Origin: a virus
IMG/VR virus record: IMGVR_UViG_3300020021_000052
Coordinates: 1-21,494 of that record
DNA: 21,494 nt
Reading direction: 5' to 3' (one strand)
In this document: positions 4,682 to 11,126 of the stretch, piece by piece
How the letters are laid out: each line of letters starts with the position of its first letter
How positions within the stretch are numbered: position 1 is the first letter of the stretch
Notes under the pieces: generated by a model
The model's input: the letters and a program-made list of their open reading frames with translations, nothing else
What the model was told of the DNA's origin: nothing
Database searches by the model: none
Translations under genes and position numbers: made by a program

Positions 4682-4723
4682 TAAGAGATTACTCTGGAGA
4701 TGATACTCTGTGTATAGGAATTA

Positions 4724-5100
4724 TCACAGGAGACGTTTTAACGTCGAACTGTGCTGTGAAAGCCAGTTTCTTATTCTTAGCGATCCCACAAAGGATCGCG
4801 GATTTGTAATTCATTGATTCTTAGAAAGGCAATAAGACTTTATTGCCGGTTATTCTGTAGGTGACTCTTGTTGAGTCACCGGAAGAATAATTCTAATCTT
4901 CGGTTAACCGTAATCTCTTCGAGATTCCGGAGAAGAATATATATCCCTTAGGGACTCCGTATCAAAATGAAACAATCACTGATTTTAACTAACCCGGTTG
5001 GTCGATTTTTCAGTACCTTGCTGAGACAAGGTACCTCGTAAGTCATTGATATTTTCAAACCACTGTATATCCATACAGTAGTTGTTGAGAATCATTCTCA
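4724..5100. repeat. Array of stem-loops in the leader of the leftward genes
   Basis: At least nine inverted repeats are packed into about 380 gene-free bases. Arms: TCACAG/CTGTGA 4724-4759 enclosing GACGT/ACGTC; GCGATCC/GGATCGC 4780-4799; GGCAATAA/TTATTGCC 4828-4847; TTATTCT/AGAATAA 4850-4890 enclosing GGTGACTC/GAGTCACC 4860-4880; CGGTTAACCG palindrome 4901-4910; AATCTC/GAGATT 4912-4926; TCCC/GGGA 4934-4944; GTACCTTG/CAAGGTAC 5013-5034; ACTGTAT/ATACAGT 5062-5079; TGAGA/TCTCA 5086-5100. Arms are perfect, with 2-6 base loops for most. A leftward transcript starting near 5380 would carry them as a structured leader. No tRNA fold was found. The role is unknown; antitermination, RNA processing or translational control are possible. 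Confidence 0.8.
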
Positions 5101-5122
5101 TTTGGACTCTCGAGTTTGAAAC

Positions 5123-5137
5123 ATTACAAAAACTTAA
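5123..5137 (+). repeat. ATTACAAA-N3-TTAA element, copy 1
   Basis: Copy with N3 = AAC. With flanks it reads ACATTA-CAAAAACT-TAATGT, so six-base inverted arms surround an eight-base spacer. It lies just upstream of a promoter candidate ending in TATAAT at 5170. It shares 17 of 18 bases with copy 4 and 16 contiguous bases with copy 5. Confidence 0.75.
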
Positions 5138-5139
5138 TG

Positions 5140-5170
5140 TTCACACCTAAGAGCAATTATGTGGTATAAT
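5140..5170 (+). promoter_or_regulatory. Rightward sigma-70-type promoter candidate
   Basis: A perfect extended -10, TGGTATAAT, ends at 5170. A possible -35, TTCACA, starts at 5140 but leaves a long 19-base spacer. The likely start point falls at a perfect hairpin (5173-5189). No gene follows for 880 bases, so it might make a noncoding RNA or a long leader for the rightward genes. Judged from consensus only. Confidence 0.5.
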
Positions 5171-5172
5171 CG

Positions 5173-5189
5173 CGCGAGCCTGTCTCGCG
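5173..5189. other. GC-rich hairpin at promoter start region
   Basis: CGCGAG and CTCGCG form a perfect six-pair stem with a five-base loop, immediately after the TATAAT box. It would be the very 5' end of a rightward RNA and might protect it or pause the polymerase. There is no T-run, so it is not a standard terminator. Confidence 0.6.
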
Positions 5190-5328
5190 GCGTATCCTGG
5201 GTTTAGACTTATAATGGTACGGCAGCGCCACTTGAATGCGGCATAGCAACATAATTCCACTATCAGATCACTTATCAGGTAATATTTTTTTCTTCATATT
5301 TTACATTAACTTTTCGTCGTAAGTGAAC

Positions 5329-5382
5329 CTGTGGGTCGCTTCGCTCGGCGCGTCGGAGTCCCTTAAACCCCGGGTGCCCCTA
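5329..5382. other. GC-rich block inside the AT-rich control region
   Basis: About 50 bases stand out from the AT-rich surroundings (gtgggtcgcttcgctcggcg, then ccccgggtgcccc). It contains CGGAGTCCCT at 5354-5363, the inverted copy of AGGGACTCCG at 4940-4949, so the two could pair in a leftward RNA. No gene, tRNA or terminator was recognised. From 5190 to 5328 I see only AT-rich sequence. Confidence 0.5.
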
Positions 5383-5408
5383 CATTATGGTAAATAGAAA
5401 AAAGTCAA
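5380..5408 (-). promoter_or_regulatory. Leftward promoter candidate for the packaging/virion genes
   Basis: On the minus strand TTGACT (5408-5403) is followed by TAATGT after 15 bases or ATGTAG after 17, so the -10 is weak. It is supported by the upstream element copy 2: ATTACAAA-N3-TTAACTTGAC is shared, apart from the three N bases, with the rightward candidate at 5691-5712. Transcription would run through the stem-loop array into the gene at 4681. Confidence 0.45.
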
Positions 5409-5409
5409 G

Positions 5410-5424
5410 TTAAATATTTGTAAT
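5410..5424 (-). repeat. ATTACAAA-N3-TTAA element, copy 2
   Basis: Minus-strand copy with N3 = TAT, followed by CTTGACT. It overlaps a degraded plus-strand relative (GTAATCAAAACTTAATGT, 5420-5437). It abuts the leftward promoter candidate. Confidence 0.7.
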
Positions 5425-5690
5425 CAAAACTTAATGTTGTAAGTCGTTGATATTAGTACAACTTATAGTTGACAAGAGTAGAGCGGCTGTGCGACAGCAC
5501 TATAACCATAACTAATAGTAGCGCGACTAGGGTGATGGGGGTGGGATAGTGATGTGGTGTTGTATCATAGTAACACACATACGCACACTATGCGTGCACA
5601 CCACATGCCACATTGACATGAGCATATAACATATCATGAGTGAGATAATATACTGCATGATTACGCTTAGCGTATGTCAAGAGATATCAC

Positions 5691-5705
5691 ATTACAAAGG
5701 ATTAA
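5691..5705 (+). repeat. ATTACAAA-N3-TTAA element, copy 3
   Basis: Copy with N3 = GGA, running straight into CTTGACA, the -35 of the rightward promoter candidate. The ten-base sequence ACATTACAAA is shared with copy 1. It is 40 bases from the first DnaA box. Confidence 0.7.
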
Positions 5706-5706
5706 C

Positions 5707-5736
5707 TTGACACACAATACGAGTTAACAATATTGA
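5707..5736 (+). promoter_or_regulatory. Rightward promoter candidate upstream of the early genes
   Basis: TTGACA (5707-5712) is a perfect -35. The best -10 is TATTGA after 18 bases (5731-5736), only a moderate match. It would drive the rightward block whose first gene begins at 6056. The first DnaA box overlaps the expected transcribed start, so initiation of replication and transcription could affect each other. Other perfect TTGACA hexamers at 5469 and 5613 lack a well-spaced -10. Confidence 0.5.
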
Positions 5737-5743
5737 TATGATC

Positions 5744-5752
5744 TGTGGATAA
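5744..5752 (-). promoter_or_regulatory. DnaA box TTATCCACA
   Basis: The minus strand reads TTATCCACA, the exact consensus DnaA box of many bacteria. It lies in noncoding AT-rich DNA with a second box 57 bases away in the same orientation. Confidence 0.65.
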
Positions 5753-5800
5753 CCCATGACACTGTATATAATTACATGCAATACAATCATACACTTAGTG

Positions 5801-5809
5801 TGTGTATAA
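5801..5809 (-). promoter_or_regulatory. DnaA box TTATACACA
   Basis: The minus strand reads TTATACACA, which fits the general DnaA box TTWTNCACA. It has the same orientation as the 5744-5752 box and follows an ACAC-TTA-GTGT hairpin. Confidence 0.6.
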
Positions 5810-5952
5810 CCTGTGTACTAATATCTAATGGTGCGGCGATCGACATACAGCCAATGCACGGCTAGTGAGTATGAGGCTAGCGCAGGACACAGGGCATATG
5901 CATTCGATATCACGATTGATGCCATGCTGCGTTGCACATCAAATATATATTG

Positions 5953-5967
5953 ATTACAAATACTTAA
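5953..5967 (+). repeat. ATTACAAA-N3-TTAA element, copy 4
   Basis: Copy with N3 = TAC. The 18 bases 5953-5970 match 5123-5140 at 17 positions. It lies 86 bases before the first rightward gene. No convincing -10 follows, so it could be an operator or leader signal rather than a promoter part. Confidence 0.7.
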
Positions 5968-6055
5968 TGTGTACTAGCATTGCGTATCTGATACGCGCAT
6001 GTGCTGTGTGCTATTATGCAGTCTCGATTCAATCAGCAACCAGCGGAGATATCCC

Positions 6056-6262
6056 ATGCGATACAAGGCAATCATCACGCGAGTTAACTCAACGCAAATG
6101 GAATGCGACATCATTGCGGCGTCACTAACGCAAGCGACACACATCGCTGCGCAGTTCACTCGGGACGGCGAGACGCTAACAGTTGAGCCGCTTAGCGCGG
6201 CTGATGTGGAAGTGATCGACTATTCCGTTCACACACAACCACAGGGGAGTGATGCGTCATGA
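6056..6262 (+). CDS. Small hypothetical protein, 68 aa; first gene of rightward block
   Basis: No family recognised. MRYKAIITRVNSTQMECDIIAAS suggests a small alpha/beta fold, ending in an acidic stretch. The ATG at 6056 is preferred over an upstream in-frame ATG at 5999 because GGAG lies seven bases before it and the earlier codons look noncoding. The stop overlaps the next start (ATGA). As the first early gene it may act on the host, but that is speculation from position. Confidence 0.7.
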   Translation: MRYKAIITRVNSTQMECDIIAASLTQATHIAAQFTRDGETLTVEPLSAADVEVIDYSVHTQPQGSDAS

Positions 6263-6456
6263 AATCCCTTGCATACGTCACTATGAACCGTCTTACACAT
6301 AGCTGGCTGATAATGCAGCCTAATAAGAACGGCGGGTTCTCGCCGTGCGCTGCGTATGCTCGCCTGGTAGATGCCAGTAATGCGTGCGATACGCTGAATT
6401 ATCCCGGTTATTACAATCAATTCCGTTCCATCAATACATCACAAAAGGTAGCTTAA
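6259..6456 (+). CDS. Small hypothetical protein, 65 aa
   Basis: No family recognised. MKSLAYVTMNRLTHSWLI is followed by an aromatic-rich segment (DTLNYPGYYNQFRSI). No membrane span or signal peptide is clear. The ATG overlaps the upstream stop, and the stop lies two bases before the amidoligase start, so it is part of the same operon. Confidence 0.65.
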   Translation: MKSLAYVTMNRLTHSWLIMQPNKNGGFSPCAAYARLVDASNACDTLNYPGYYNQFRSINTSQKVA

Positions 6457-6458
6457 TC

Positions 6459-7730
6459 ATGCCTAATAACACTACGCCACAAGATACTATCGTGTCCCGC
6501 AACGCCACCATTACCGTTACCGATGGTTGCACTGCGCCTAATGAGATTCCTGAAATCACCTCCGAAGTTGCGCAGCAGATATGCGCGCATTGTCATGGTG
6601 ACATACCACGCGCAAATATATCGTGTACGCTTGAATCGGGCATTCTGATATGCGCTCGCTGCGCGGTACGGACTGGAAGTTTCTTCTACTCTGAACGGCA
6701 GAACTGCTACGTCAATACATGGTCACGGGTTATTCTCGCAGATACAGACGAAGCGGTGAGCATGAATTACGCTAGATCACGCTGCTATTACTCAGAGATA
6801 TGTGATGCCTATTACTCTGACTACGATAACGCGTATGACGATGAAATGCAGGCGAGGGACCGTGCAGACGACGAAGCGCGGAATGGCGTGTATGACTACC
6901 ACGCGACGAATCCAATTGAGATACATGGATGGGATAAGGAGACTCCCAAGACATCGCTGTGTTTCGGCGTTGAATTGGAAATGGAGCACAAAGATGACGA
7001 CGATGGCGGCGGTCAGACGGAAATCAGCGCAGCGCTTGGCGGTAAACGCGGCGTTCATGGTATGGAGAGCGCTAAGGGAAAATACATCCTTATGCGTGAT
7101 GGCTCGCTCAATGACTCCGGTGTTGAACTGATCACTGTCCCTTATACGCTTGAGGGACATCAAAAGGCGTTTGGCTGGAAAGCCGTACTTGGCAAAGTCA
7201 CTGGCATAGGCCGTAGCGGGCGATATACCAATGCGTGCGGTATGCACGTCCATGTTAATCGCAAGGCGCTTAGCGCGTTTACGCTTGGTAAGATGCTGGT
7301 TTTTGTGAATTCCCCGCAGAACACCGCACTCATTGAGAAGATTGCGCAGCGCGATCCTGAAGAATGGGCGCGGCGCTACAGCAAGTGCGTGTGTGATGGC
7401 CTGGTACGTGAGACAGATAAATACGAGGCAATGCACTTAAGCTCGCAAACCGTAGAGTTTCGTATATTCCGCGGCAATCTGCGATTTGATCGCGTACTTA
7501 AGAATATTGAGTTCTGTCATGCGGTAGTGATGTACGCCAAAGACACGTCTATGCAGGACTTGGAGCGTCCTACGCTGTTTGTCGCATGGCTTGCCCAGCA
7601 TAAGGGTACGTATCCGAATCTTGCCAAGTTCCTCTCCGAGACTGCATTTAATTCACGGCTCAGTGCCGCTGCTAATGCCAATAGCATCGCGCGGCCGTCC
7701 ACTACTGTTCGCTCATCGGAGGAAATTTAA
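6459..7730 (+). CDS. Putative amidoligase (glutamine-synthetase-like COOH-NH2 ligase), 423 aa
   Basis: Likely joins an amine or ammonia to a carboxyl group using ATP. Family marks: FGVELEME (169-176), MRDGSL (212-217), GVELITVP (221-228), CGMHVHV (260-266) and TVEFRIFRG (331-339); these acidic, His and Arg residues bind metal-ATP and substrate in this fold. A zinc-ribbon-like segment precedes it, CAHC (42-45) and CARC (65-68), then a Tyr/Asp-rich stretch to about 150. ATG 6459 is chosen because AAAGGT lies ahead; an in-frame upstream ATG (6384) would run back into the preceding gene. A class II glutamine amidotransferase follows by two bases, the classic partner supplying ammonia. The substrate is unknown. 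The family is fairly sure from the motif set. Confidence 0.85.
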   Translation: MPNNTTPQDTIVSRNATITVTDGCTAPNEIPEITSEVAQQICAHCHGDIPRANISCTLESGILICARCAVRTGSFFYSERQNCYVNTWSRVILADTDEAVSMNYARSRCYYSEICDAYYSDYDNAYDDEMQARDRADDEARNGVYDYHATNPIEIHGWDKETPKTSLCFGVELEMEHKDDDDGGGQTEISAALGGKRGVHGMESAKGKYILMRDGSLNDSGVELITVPYTLEGHQKAFGWKAVLGKVTGIGRSGRYTNACGMHVHVNRKALSAFTLGKMLVFVNSPQNTALIEKIAQRDPEEWARRYSKCVCDGLVRETDKYEAMHLSSQTVEFRIFRGNLRFDRVLKNIEFCHAVVMYAKDTSMQDLERPTLFVAWLAQHKGTYPNLAKFLSETAFNSRLSAAANANSIARPSTTVRSSEEI

Positions 7731-7731
7731 T

Positions 7732-8835
7732 ATGTGTCTCATAGCCTACGTAAAGCCTGGTAATAAGATTCCTGAGAGTTATTTTCGCGCCGCTGCGCAT
7801 GATAATGACGACGGTATTGGCATCATGTGGTCCGACGGAATTGAGAAATTCTTAGGCTCTAAAATGGTCAAGCGCGCGTGGCGCTTGGCTAAGCGTTTGC
7901 ATGAAGCCAATGCAGAGTTTGCAGTTCACTTCCGCTATGCGACGCATGGGCGCGTAGCGCTAGTGAATACGCACCCATTCCGCACGCCTGACGGTAACGC
8001 GTATGTAATGCACAATGGCATCCTGTCGCAATACACACCAAAGGATGCGGGCGGCGACGTTAGCGATACGCGCAATTTAGTAGATATTATGCGCGGCGTG
8101 GATGTAGCGGGTGACCTGCAATACTGGGAGAAAATGGAAGAACATATTGGTTGGGGTAATAAGCTGTGTGTGATGTCGCGAGACGGCGAATTCCGCATTG
8201 TGAATGAAACTGCCGGTGATTGGATAGATGGCGTTTGGTATAGCCAGACCTACTCATTGCCGGGTAAGTTCGGTGCGGGCTATTACGAGCGCAAGTATGG
8301 TGATTGGGGTACGCCAGCGAATGCCTACAGCAATGGCTACGCGGTAGGTGGCTGGCGCGGTCATGGCTACACAAGTACGGACATGCTTGACGAGACCGAA
8401 GTAGGCGCGCGTAGCTGTGTGATCAATACCAATGACAAGGGTACGGTAGCGACGGCGCTAATACCGTATGCGACACGTAGTGTGCTAGCAGCTATGAAAC
8501 GTCATGACCAAAAAGATAATTTGCTCTACCAGGCAGGCAAGGATTACGCCAATGGTTCCGGTACGCATTCGCTACCGGCAGATACGTACAATGTCTTACC
8601 GAACTACAAAGAACAGAATCGCGCAGAAGCTGCAGCACTGGATAGGGAATTGGATAAGCACTTTGCGCAAACGGACGACGGCGCGTTAGGGAATGACGAC
8701 GACGAGCTATGGGCTGACGAGGACCCTACAGACATCTGTCCGTCATGCGAGGCCCTGCACTGCAATGGCCCTATGTGTCTTACGTGCGGCCATTTTGATG
8801 AGCAGGCAGGTCTACTGGCTGCCGGTATGAGCTAA
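7732..8835 (+). CDS. Class II glutamine amidotransferase, 367 aa
   Basis: Releases ammonia from glutamine, probably for the amidoligase just upstream. Start is fixed by GGAGG nine bases ahead and by Cys2, which becomes the N-terminal nucleophile after Met removal. Other marks: RYATHG (68-73), NTHPF (79-83), HNGIL (94-98), SDTRNL (111-116) and a GNKLCVMSRDGEF strand (142-154). The catalytic domain ends near residue 180; the rest is unlike known synthase domains. The C-terminus carries CPSC (336-339), C344 and CLTC (349-352), a possible zinc ribbon after an acidic linker. No synthase domain is fused, so it likely works with the neighbouring ligase. Domain assignment is confident; partnership is inferred. 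Confidence 0.88.
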   Translation: MCLIAYVKPGNKIPESYFRAAAHDNDDGIGIMWSDGIEKFLGSKMVKRAWRLAKRLHEANAEFAVHFRYATHGRVALVNTHPFRTPDGNAYVMHNGILSQYTPKDAGGDVSDTRNLVDIMRGVDVAGDLQYWEKMEEHIGWGNKLCVMSRDGEFRIVNETAGDWIDGVWYSQTYSLPGKFGAGYYERKYGDWGTPANAYSNGYAVGGWRGHGYTSTDMLDETEVGARSCVINTNDKGTVATALIPYATRSVLAAMKRHDQKDNLLYQAGKDYANGSGTHSLPADTYNVLPNYKEQNRAEAAALDRELDKHFAQTDDGALGNDDDELWADEDPTDICPSCEALHCNGPMCLTCGHFDEQAGLLAAGMS

Positions 8836-8840
8836 GGGTC

Positions 8841-8875
8841 ATCCCCTGTTAGCTGTCGCAGCGGCTAATGGGGAT
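8841..8875 (+). terminator. Stem-loop after the amidotransferase gene, possible terminator
   Basis: ATCCCC pairs with GGGGAT, and inside it GCTG-TCG-CAGC or TTAGC/GCTAA pair. TGTCTTT follows, only partly T-rich. It could be a weak terminator or attenuator reducing expression of the small genes downstream, or just an RNA-stabilising hairpin. Confidence 0.45.
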
Positions 8876-8898
8876 TGTCTTTACATATGGAGTCTATT

Positions 8899-9021
8899 AT
8901 GTCAATTGGAATATGCTTATGCTTTATCAGTCTGTGCGTCTTAGTCGCCTGCGTTGTATTTGCACTACAACATGTGGCATCATTACAACACGGCGGTAGC
9001 AATAGGAGTATGAGAGCTTGA
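8899..9021 (+). CDS. Single-span membrane peptide, 40 aa
   Basis: A very short gene: MSIGICLCFISLCVLVACVV begins a hydrophobic span of about 20 residues with four Cys, then a polar basic tail (HGGSNRSMRA). GGAG lies six bases before the ATG, and the stop shares TTGA with the next gene's TTG start, both supporting real translation. It probably inserts in the inner membrane. A holin or host-interaction role cannot be judged; no lysis gene is next to it. Confidence 0.7.
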   Translation: MSIGICLCFISLCVLVACVVFALQHVASLQHGGSNRSMRA

Positions 9022-9302
9022 AAGTCTTTCAACTAAAAGTGAGCGGAACTGGAATTACCGGCGACGAATTTGTCTACGCGGATGTTGTTCTAAAGTCAGA
9101 CTATGATGCCCTCGCACTAGCTGCTGCGCGCGAGGCTATAGGCTCGGCATGCTCCTCTAGGACCGATATGGCGGCCAAGCTTGCGGCGTCATTGAGCGAC
9201 TGCGTCGAGATCCTGTCAGCCAATAGGACAACCGATCTGCGTGCCGGTCTCGACGTGGATAGGGTCATCGATGAATCTAACCGGTTGCTTGGCCGTGAGT
9301 AA
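9018..9302 (+). CDS. Hypothetical protein, 94 aa (TTG start)
   Basis: No family recognised. An N-terminal beta strand pair (KVFQLKVSGTGITGDEFVYA) is followed by mostly helical Ala-rich sequence, ending in DVDRVIDESNRLLG. The TTG start is chosen because AGGAG lies nine bases ahead and TTGA overlaps the upstream stop; no ATG is available at the right distance. Function unknown. Confidence 0.75.
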   Translation: MKVFQLKVSGTGITGDEFVYADVVLKSDYDALALAAAREAIGSACSSRTDMAAKLAASLSDCVEILSANRTTDLRAGLDVDRVIDESNRLLGRE

Positions 9303-9330
9303 GGAGCGAATCATGCCAACCGGCCTATTA

Positions 9331-9345
9331 TTAAGTTTTTGTAAT
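9331..9345 (-). repeat. ATTACAAA-N3-TTAA element, copy 5
   Basis: Minus-strand copy with N3 = AAC. Sixteen bases (9330-9345) are identical to 5123-5138, and its flanks make perfect arms: TTATTA-AGTTTTTG-TAATAA on the plus strand (9328-9347). It lies ten bases before a sigma-54-type promoter, in a gap of about 90 bases. Confidence 0.75.
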
Positions 9346-9355
9346 AATTGAAAGT

Positions 9356-9371
9356 TGGCACGATACTTGCA
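9356..9371 (+). promoter_or_regulatory. Sigma-54 (RpoN) consensus promoter TGGCACG-N4-TTGCA
   Basis: TGGCACG, four bases, TTGCA matches the -24/-12 consensus perfectly, with GG and GC exactly ten bases apart. Transcription would begin near 9382, just before the ribosome site and ATG (9396) of a 28-residue peptide. A competing reading is a sigma-70 promoter with TTGAAA (9348-9353) and ATGTAT after 17 bases. Sigma-54 needs an enhancer-binding activator; none is encoded in this window. Confidence 0.55.
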
Positions 9372-10328: not shown

Positions 10329-10510
10329 TGTGGCTCCTAGTGTTCGTCATGTACATGCCGACAGGAGATGTACACATAAACAGTATTCATGGATACACTA
10401 CATTCGGCGCTTGCTCTTTCGAAGCAAAGCAATTTAGCAGGCGTTTCGACTGGATTAGCTGGCAATGCGTCTCCGATGATTTAACTAAACGAGTGACTTA
10501 TGACAAATGA
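10328..10510 (+). CDS. Small protein with hydrophobic N-terminus, 60 aa (GTG start)
   Basis: MWLLVFVMYMPTGDVH begins with a short hydrophobic segment that could be an anchor or buried strand, then a soluble part with two Cys (ACSFEAKQF and WQCVSDD) that could pair. This size and pattern recur in small phage proteins of unknown role. AGGAGG lies five bases before the GTG start. It overlaps the next gene by 11 bases. Confidence 0.68.
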   Translation: MWLLVFVMYMPTGDVHINSIHGYTTFGACSFEAKQFSRRFDWISWQCVSDDLTKRVTYDK

Positions 10511-11126
10511 ACTAACCTTTGAGAATTACGCAAAAGAGCTTACGGACGCGTCTAGCATCCTGCCAGATGATGCAATCATGGGGTTCCTAGCGCAGAATAA
10601 GCTACAGCCGATTATGTTATATACATATCGCATCGCAGCATACGCGGCGCAAGATATTCGAACATCCGGGAAAGCGCCGTCCGTAGTCGATGATAGCGAC
10701 TATATTGACGCAGTGCAAGAATGTATTACGCACGTACCGCAGATAGTGCAGAGTTGGTCGAATAATCCTAAACATAAGTTCTCAGCTTATATCAATCGCG
10801 CATGTAAGATTATCGCGCTTAATTATCTATGGGAGCAGGCTAAAGGAGGTACGGATTACGCCACTGGTAAAGGTCCGACTGTCGAACAATTACCGGAAGT
10901 AGCAGAGGAAGTAGATGACGACGAATTCTATTTAGATCAGGAACCGAGCTACGACTTCCCTCCACAGGGCTTTCGTGATCCTATGGAGGAGTTGATAGCG
11001 GCTGAGGACGAAGACCGCGCCTTGCGCGCCCTAATGCGTCCTGCGGCTACTCCTGAAGATACTCAACAACGTAATAGCCGAGTTTGGCGTACATTACGGC
11101 TAAAGGGCGCAAAACACCATGTATAA
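10500..11126 (+). CDS. Sigma-70 region 2-like protein, 208 aa
   Basis: Residues 68-110 (YIDAVQECITHVPQIVQSW, then KFSAYINRACKIIALNYL) look like sigma region 2.2-2.4: D-x-x-Q-E, then F-x-x-Y before a basic helix. That region grips the RNA polymerase clamp and reads the -10. After residue 115 comes an acidic, Pro-containing linker and a basic tail (SRVWRTLRLKGAKHHV); no region 4 helix-turn-helix is obvious. It could be a divergent phage sigma factor or polymerase-binding regulator redirecting transcription. It closes the first rightward block, before a 309-base gene-free stretch. The match is by eye and moderate. Confidence 0.5.
   Translation: MTNELTFENYAKELTDASSILPDDAIMGFLAQNKLQPIMLYTYRIAAYAAQDIRTSGKAPSVVDDSDYIDAVQECITHVPQIVQSWSNNPKHKFSAYINRACKIIALNYLWEQAKGGTDYATGKGPTVEQLPEVAEEVDDDEFYLDQEPSYDFPPQGFRDPMEELIAAEDEDRALRALMRPAATPEDTQQRNSRVWRTLRLKGAKHHV

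Follow-up and report, generated by a model that had tools for sequence, protein, structure and literature searches.

A 22-bp dyad repeated in the early/late control region of a Zobellviridae-related phage matches the operator motif of bacterial heavy-metal/redox response regulators

Introduction

Activators of the OmpR/PhoB family commonly bind at a site that overlaps or replaces the -35 element of the promoter. The closest precedent for phage genes placed under a host two-component regulator of this family is the pho box of cyanophages: host PhoB boxes have been described for pstS of P-SSM2 and for several genes of S-PM2d, where predictions were partly wrong, or unreliable until gel shift (PMC10976474). 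Apart from these cyanophage Pho boxes, we found no example in the literature searched of a phage tied in this way to a host two-component regulator, nor any report of boxes of the metal-regulator class in phages, the coverage of that search being incomplete.

The box of E. coli CusR/HprR reads CATTACAAAATTGTAATG (PMC9302797). Pseudomonas CopR/CzcR/CusR sites, given as CTGACA-N5-GTAAT and GAAAC-N6-GTAAT, have a GTAAT half-site in common (PMC11195947), and the PmrA/QseB box is CTTAAG-N5-NTTAAT (PMC3973317).

Here we analysed a 21,494-base viral fragment from IMG/VR (hereafter the window). An initial annotation had described a repeated noncoding element in it, ATTACAAA-N3-TTAA, beside divergent promoters, and had proposed that it was the binding site of a phage regulator controlling both arms or part of a phage-specific promoter. 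We defined the sequence unit of these repeats computationally and found it conserved in related phages and identical with the operator motif upstream of metal/redox response regulators.

Results

The repeats in the window

An exact search for ATTACAAA-N3-TTAA on both strands of the 21,494-base record returned five matches, all noncoding, at 5123-5137 (+), 5410-5424 (-), 5691-5705 (+), 5953-5967 (+) and 9331-9345 (-), confirming the number, positions, strands and noncoding location given in the initial annotation. No sixth exact match was present in the whole record and the reversed control pattern had none, while the expected number from 300 second-order Markov simulations was 0.0 for the intergenic region and 0.02 for the window as a whole. 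The similarities described earlier among the copies were also correct: copies 1 and 4 are identical at 17/18 bases, copies 1 and 5 have the 16 contiguous bases ATTACAAAAACTTAAT in common as read from the sequence, and copies 2 and 3 have the extended form ATTACAAA-N3-TTAACTTGAC on opposite strands.

The full unit is larger than this pattern and consists of a 22-bp dyad, AACATTA-N8-TAATGTT. Copy 1 (5120-5141, +; AACATTACAAAAACTTAATGTT) is a perfect dyad with 7-bp perfect arms. Copy 3 (5688-5709, +; CACATTACAAAGGATTAACTTG), which continues into TTGACA, and copy 4 (5950-5971, +; TTGATTACAAATACTTAATGTG) each have two mismatches to the inner arms ACATTA-N8-TAATGT. By reading of the sequence, copy 2 (5406-5427, -; TTGATTACAAATATTTAACTTG), oriented to the leftward late operon, and copy 5 (9327-9348, -; ATTATTACAAAAACTTAATAAT) keep the core and have poorer arms. 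Copies 3 and 5 are weak. An extra half-element, AAAACTTAATGTT (5426-5438, +), abuts copy 2. Copies 1-4 are located within a 1.37-kb divergent region (4682-6056), and copy 5 is found amid small early genes.

Conservation in related phages

The DNA polymerase and helicase of the window are related to those of Zobellviridae (e.g. VpV262) and of Stenotrophomonas phage StenR_269, and the window had no match among phage records at the nucleotide level. Homologous divergent regions are present in three relatives, G001 (L006 1259-2212), G002 (L012 7246-8167) and G664 (L139 5233-6532). Both G002, with a site 91% identical to copy 1 over 22 bp, and G664, with an amidotransferase 50% identical, carry a perfect dyad in this region. 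The G664 site aligned with copy 4 in the same flanks (AAATATACTTGATTACAATACTGTAATGTA; positional homolog at L139 6448, TTGATTACAATACTGTAATGTA) reads ATTACAATACTGTAAT, which resembles the published E. coli CusR/HprR box. Because the DNA on the copy 1 side aligns poorly with L139, homology between copy 1 and a half-element at L139 5615 is no more than possible. The divergent region of G001 lacks a good dyad and has one direct repeat, CTTAATGAAATCTTAATG; a 2-mismatch dyad is located further into the early genes of this phage.

Across the three relatives, 6/10 dyads with at most two mismatches fall in the divergent region, which is 2.6% of the sequence (binomial P ~6e-8, before allowing for AT-richness), and composition-matched simulations predicted 0.42 dyads where six were seen. 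The idea of a regulatory element thus survived the comparison: the dyad is kept at the same place in G002 and G664, and within the 21,494-base fragment and its relatives the motif is enriched outside genes instead of being equally frequent inside them. Adjacent genes for an amidoligase and a class-II glutamine amidotransferase occupy window positions 6459-8835; the relatives have this pair as well, and it is also annotated in StenR_269.

The divergent control region

The divergent region at 4682-6056 lies between late genes on the minus strand and early genes on the plus strand, and holds predicted promoters, a DnaA box and IHF-consensus sites besides copies 1-4. Distances from copies to transcript starts were inferred from the predicted promoters and the sequence. 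An extended -10 element, TGGTATAAT (5165-5170, +), without a good -35, would place the centre of copy 1 at about -46. The predicted promoter TTAACT-18-CATAAT (5384-5413, -) is directed toward the late operon with the centre of copy 2 at about -40, and TTGACA-16-AATATT (5707-5734, +) has copy 3 centred at about -42. The predicted promoter CTGATA-18-TATTAT (5988-6017, +), with TG upstream of its -10, points toward the first early gene (6057) and would have copy 4 centred at about -63. Copy 5 has no promoter in its own orientation. Prediction based on consensus alone gave eight promoters against 4.5 expected, which is only weakly above chance.

A consensus DnaA box, TTATCCACA, is located at 5744-5752 (-), and IHF-consensus sites are found at 5039-5050 (-; ATCAATGACTTA) in the late-operon leader and at 5440-5451 (-; ATCAACGACTTA). 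The four divergent regions together contain seven consensus DnaA boxes, six of them in the relatives against 0.05 expected, and all four contain IHF-consensus sites. The divergent region is probably a target of the host's DnaA and IHF too, and since consensus DnaA boxes and IHF sites are far above chance in most relatives, the region may double as a replication origin. The 22-mer itself was rejected as an IHF site with two consensus core bases wrong, though true IHF-consensus sites lie nearby.

Several other features of this region were observed. IHF-consensus sites of the form ATCAAYRAYTTA (window 4807-4818, which differs by one base, 5039-5050 and 5440-5451) occur in the leftward late-operon leader of all four related phages, and a similar ATCAAYGACTTAC is present in the unrelated L019, L055 and L058. 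The block GGTRCCCCT (window 5373-5381), near the predicted leftward transcript start, is kept in 4/4 divergent regions, and noncoding ATAACCTGTGTA..AA.ATCTAATGGT.CGG.GATC (window 5800-5845) is strongly conserved in L139 at 6305-6345.

The 22-mer in other phages and in bacteria

Searching viral contigs for AACATTACANAANCTTAATGTT gave five matches, namely G002 and the contigs L019, L055, L057 and L058, in which none of the eight window proteins tested had a homolog. By our reading of the translations, these four contigs have a terminase-small-subunit-like gene in common. In three of the four the 22-mer adjoins DnaA boxes and a TTGACA promoter, and the motif stands next to DnaA boxes in L055, L057 and L058. 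The sequence ATTACAAAAACTTAATRWT had 29 matches in viral contigs, and only the full 22-mer proved informative.

Among 84,980 species genomes, the 22-mer matched four times, on two contigs of one gammaproteobacterial MAG and on two Bacteroidota contigs. In the MAG, a cusCBA-type efflux operon adjoins the site, which is upstream of genes for a response regulator and a sensor kinase; the top NCBIfam matches of these two proteins are to heavy-metal models (TIGR01387 and TIGR01386), at scores below the curated cut-offs. L062 has two perfect dyads about 40 bp apart, the second being AACATTAAATATATTTAATGTT. The 18-mer CATTACANNNNCTTAATG was not enriched across 398 Pseudomonadota genomes (10 matches versus ~17 for the control), and we therefore rejected a Pseudomonadota-wide regulon of this 18-mer; the exact form belongs to a subset, not to Pseudomonadota at large.

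Operator motif of metal/redox response regulators

The MAG regulator and its closest relatives provided 30 regulator loci from 274 genomes. For motif discovery we used the 200 bp upstream of 29 heavy-metal-type (CusR/CopR/CzcR/HprR) regulators, including no phage sequence and leaving the MAG out. Palindromic EM yielded aaCATTAa.aatt.tTAATGtt with a log-likelihood gain of 106.5 versus 33.0 for shuffled input, in a run that was not fully blind, as the palindromic model had been chosen with the phage dyad known. At width 22, this matrix placed copies 1, 4, 2, 5 and 3, in this order, at ranks 1-5 of ~21,000 window positions; at widths 18 and 20, copies 1-4 were the best four and copy 5 ranked 9 and 14, respectively. 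A QseB-like control matrix of width 22 ranked the five copies between ~2,550 and ~8,460, and QseB-trained motifs placed most copies low, the best single rank being 13 (copy 3, width 18). At the heavy-metal-type regulator loci, ACATTA-N8-TAATGT with at most one mismatch was ~74 times as dense within 200 bp upstream of the regulator gene as in the remaining sequence. Such dyads were absent at 30 QseB-like loci from the same class, which have TTAA-N7-TTAA upstream instead. A matrix built from sites picked with the phage pattern agreed with this: its best sites lay in the divergent regions of G002 and G664, and in the second phage lineage it returned single outliers scoring 26-29 bits.

The five copies fit the palindrome upstream of CusR/CopR/CzcR/HprR-type regulator genes. 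Several paralogous regulators have this motif in common, so that the signal may be Cu, Zn, Ag or peroxide. By our own reading of the sequences, the heavy-metal-type regulators with the dyad in L079, L081 and L102 have as neighbours membrane proteins of cytochrome b561-like type and small secreted proteins, among them a PepSY-like one. These neighbours suggest a redox rather than a purely metal signal for part of the regulator family.

The published E. coli CusR/HprR box is identical at 15/18 positions to copy 1 and to the G664 (L139) homolog of copy 4. The phage copies resemble the CusR/HprR and CopR/CzcR/CusR sites in the ATTAC/GTAAT half-site, in length and in the dyad, which those regulators have at regulator-gene promoters. 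They differ from all these sites in being located in phage control regions, with several per genome, in the second half, usually TTAATG and not GTAATG, and in that the phage records yielded no regulator gene. The PmrA/QseB box is likewise an OmpR-family site, with TTAA halves, and G001 carries CTTAATGAAATCTTAAT. In contrast to this box, each window copy forms a dyad in which one half is ATTAC, and a motif trained on QseB-like loci ranks the copies poorly. We rejected the PmrA/QseB box for these ATTAC...TTAA dyads; it fits only the G001 direct repeat.

Candidate phage-encoded binders

Trans_reg_C had no match in seven phage records. An HMM made from 60 regulators, with which the positive control was found, detected no winged-helix match when six-frame ORFs from 11 phage sequences, G664 among them, were searched. 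Stand-alone HTH_8 (Fis/NtrC-type) proteins of 63-64 aa are encoded beside the divergent region in G002 (L012 8168-8356) and G001 (L006 2213-2404). No similar HTH_8 gene was found in the phages collection, and neither the window fragment nor G664 (43 kb) encodes HTH_8. The HTH_8 protein was rejected as a general binder of the dyad, since G664 has perfect dyads without it.

The protein encoded at 10500-11126 (+) has a predicted sigma-factor region-2-like fold. Residues 1-115 of the predicted structure match sigma region 2 with Z up to 9.1, a value that helical folds reach easily, and all the PDB entries among the matches listed are sigma factors or their holoenzymes. The protein is conserved in four phages and was assigned no family in PHROGs, Pfam and PDB-sequence searches. 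The predicted fold supports the sigma-like naming of this protein without explaining the 22-bp dyad. PF00940 (single-subunit RNA polymerase) had no match in G000-G002, nor in any control genome; promoters of a single-subunit (T7-type) RNA polymerase were provisionally set aside as the polymerase was not found, the controls being silent too.

A sigma54-type -24/-12 element, TTGGCACGATACTTGCA, is a perfect match at window 9355-9371 (+), beside copy 5. A related TTGGCA-N8-GCATATACT occurs in L006 at ~2556, at the same distance from the dyad core, and in L012 at 8363, and TTGGCACG-N4-TTGCA/GTGCA is found in L140 at 3166 and 3587.

Discussion

We consider it probable, judging from sequence, that the repeats are operators for a host-encoded OmpR/PhoB-family heavy-metal/redox regulator of the CusR/CopR/CzcR/HprR type (NCBIfam TIGR01387-like). 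The phage lineage, with replication genes related to Zobellviridae (VpV262), would have evolved or acquired several sites in the central divergent region. Under metal or periplasmic redox stress, the active sensor kinase would lead to phosphorylation of the regulator, which would bind the dyad as a dimer and recruit RNA polymerase at promoters in both directions. With centres ~40-47 bp (copies 1-3) and ~63 bp (copy 4) ahead of the predicted starts, the sites would be positioned like those of other OmpR/PhoB-family activators. Activation of both arms by the host metal/redox regulator thus seems most likely; repression instead of activation through these putative sites is conceivable, and the dyads could also be bound by a phage protein with a different fold. 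The earlier proposal of a regulator site controlling both arms is supported in that the sites are conserved in place in relatives and enriched outside genes, with three copies abutting predicted promoters. Its attribution to a phage regulator is not supported: the motif is that of a host two-component family, no Trans_reg_C-type winged-helix gene was found in the phage records searched, and G664, which has perfect sites, lacks HTH_8, the one HTH protein detected in the phages.

A phage usually provides the repressor or activator that binds operators in its control region, and this role could fall to the 63-aa HTH_8 protein (Fis/NtrC C-terminal type), whose gene adjoins the divergent region in G001 and G002, or to some other small early protein that escaped recognition. 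We regard this as unlikely, as neither the window fragment nor G664 with its perfect dyads has HTH_8, and the 22-mer recurs in phages of an unrelated lineage as well as at operators of bacterial response regulators. The seven DnaA boxes and the IHF sites of the four divergent regions, the AT-rich DNA between the divergent arms and the DnaA boxes next to the motif in L055, L057 and L058 could alternatively indicate that the repeats are bound by a replication-origin initiator, with DnaA and IHF as helpers, and are not transcriptional operators. However, helically phased iterons are tandem with ~20-22 bp spacing, whereas these copies are ~260-290 bp apart on both strands with one 3.4 kb away; G002 has dyads and no consensus DnaA box, and the motif matches a response-regulator operator, making an initiator repeat very unlikely.

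We give the least credence to a promoter class read by the sigma-like protein (10500-11126). The predicted fold of its residues 1-115 agrees with sigma region 2 in every listed match and copies abut -35-like hexamers, but a two-element promoter does not take the form of a 22-bp dyad with 7-bp arms, the distance to -10-like sites varies and copy 5 has no promoter in its own orientation. Moreover, bacterial operators have the motif too, as do phages from which the sigma-like protein is not known. The initial suggestion of a phage-specific promoter element is therefore not supported, despite the sigma region-2-like fold predicted for this protein.

Control by a host metal/redox regulator would resemble the cyanophage pho boxes in placing phage genes under an OmpR/PhoB-family two-component regulator of the host. 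The cyanophage boxes concern phosphate starvation and individual phage genes and were proven by gel shift, whereas the sites described here are of the metal/redox class, are located in the central early/late divergent region and are known from sequence. They are central, several per genome, kept in relatives down to ~50% marker-protein identity and found in two unrelated lineages. A broader picture, which we advance tentatively and hold to be possible rather than probable, is that the Zobellviridae-related lineage wires its early/late divergent promoters to the host metal/redox sensor and that a second, unrelated lineage converged on the same 22-bp operator beside DnaA and IHF sites, so that infection would read envelope stress, the replication initiator and architecture proteins at one hub.

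The proposed operators suggest that the virus lets the host's own stress sensor help control viral genes, and they provide a concrete prediction of one operator and one regulator family. If this is true, the timing of phage gene expression, or its yield, would depend on copper, zinc, silver or oxidants in the environment, or on envelope stress that the infection causes, and habitats contaminated with metal would exert selection on how phages behave.
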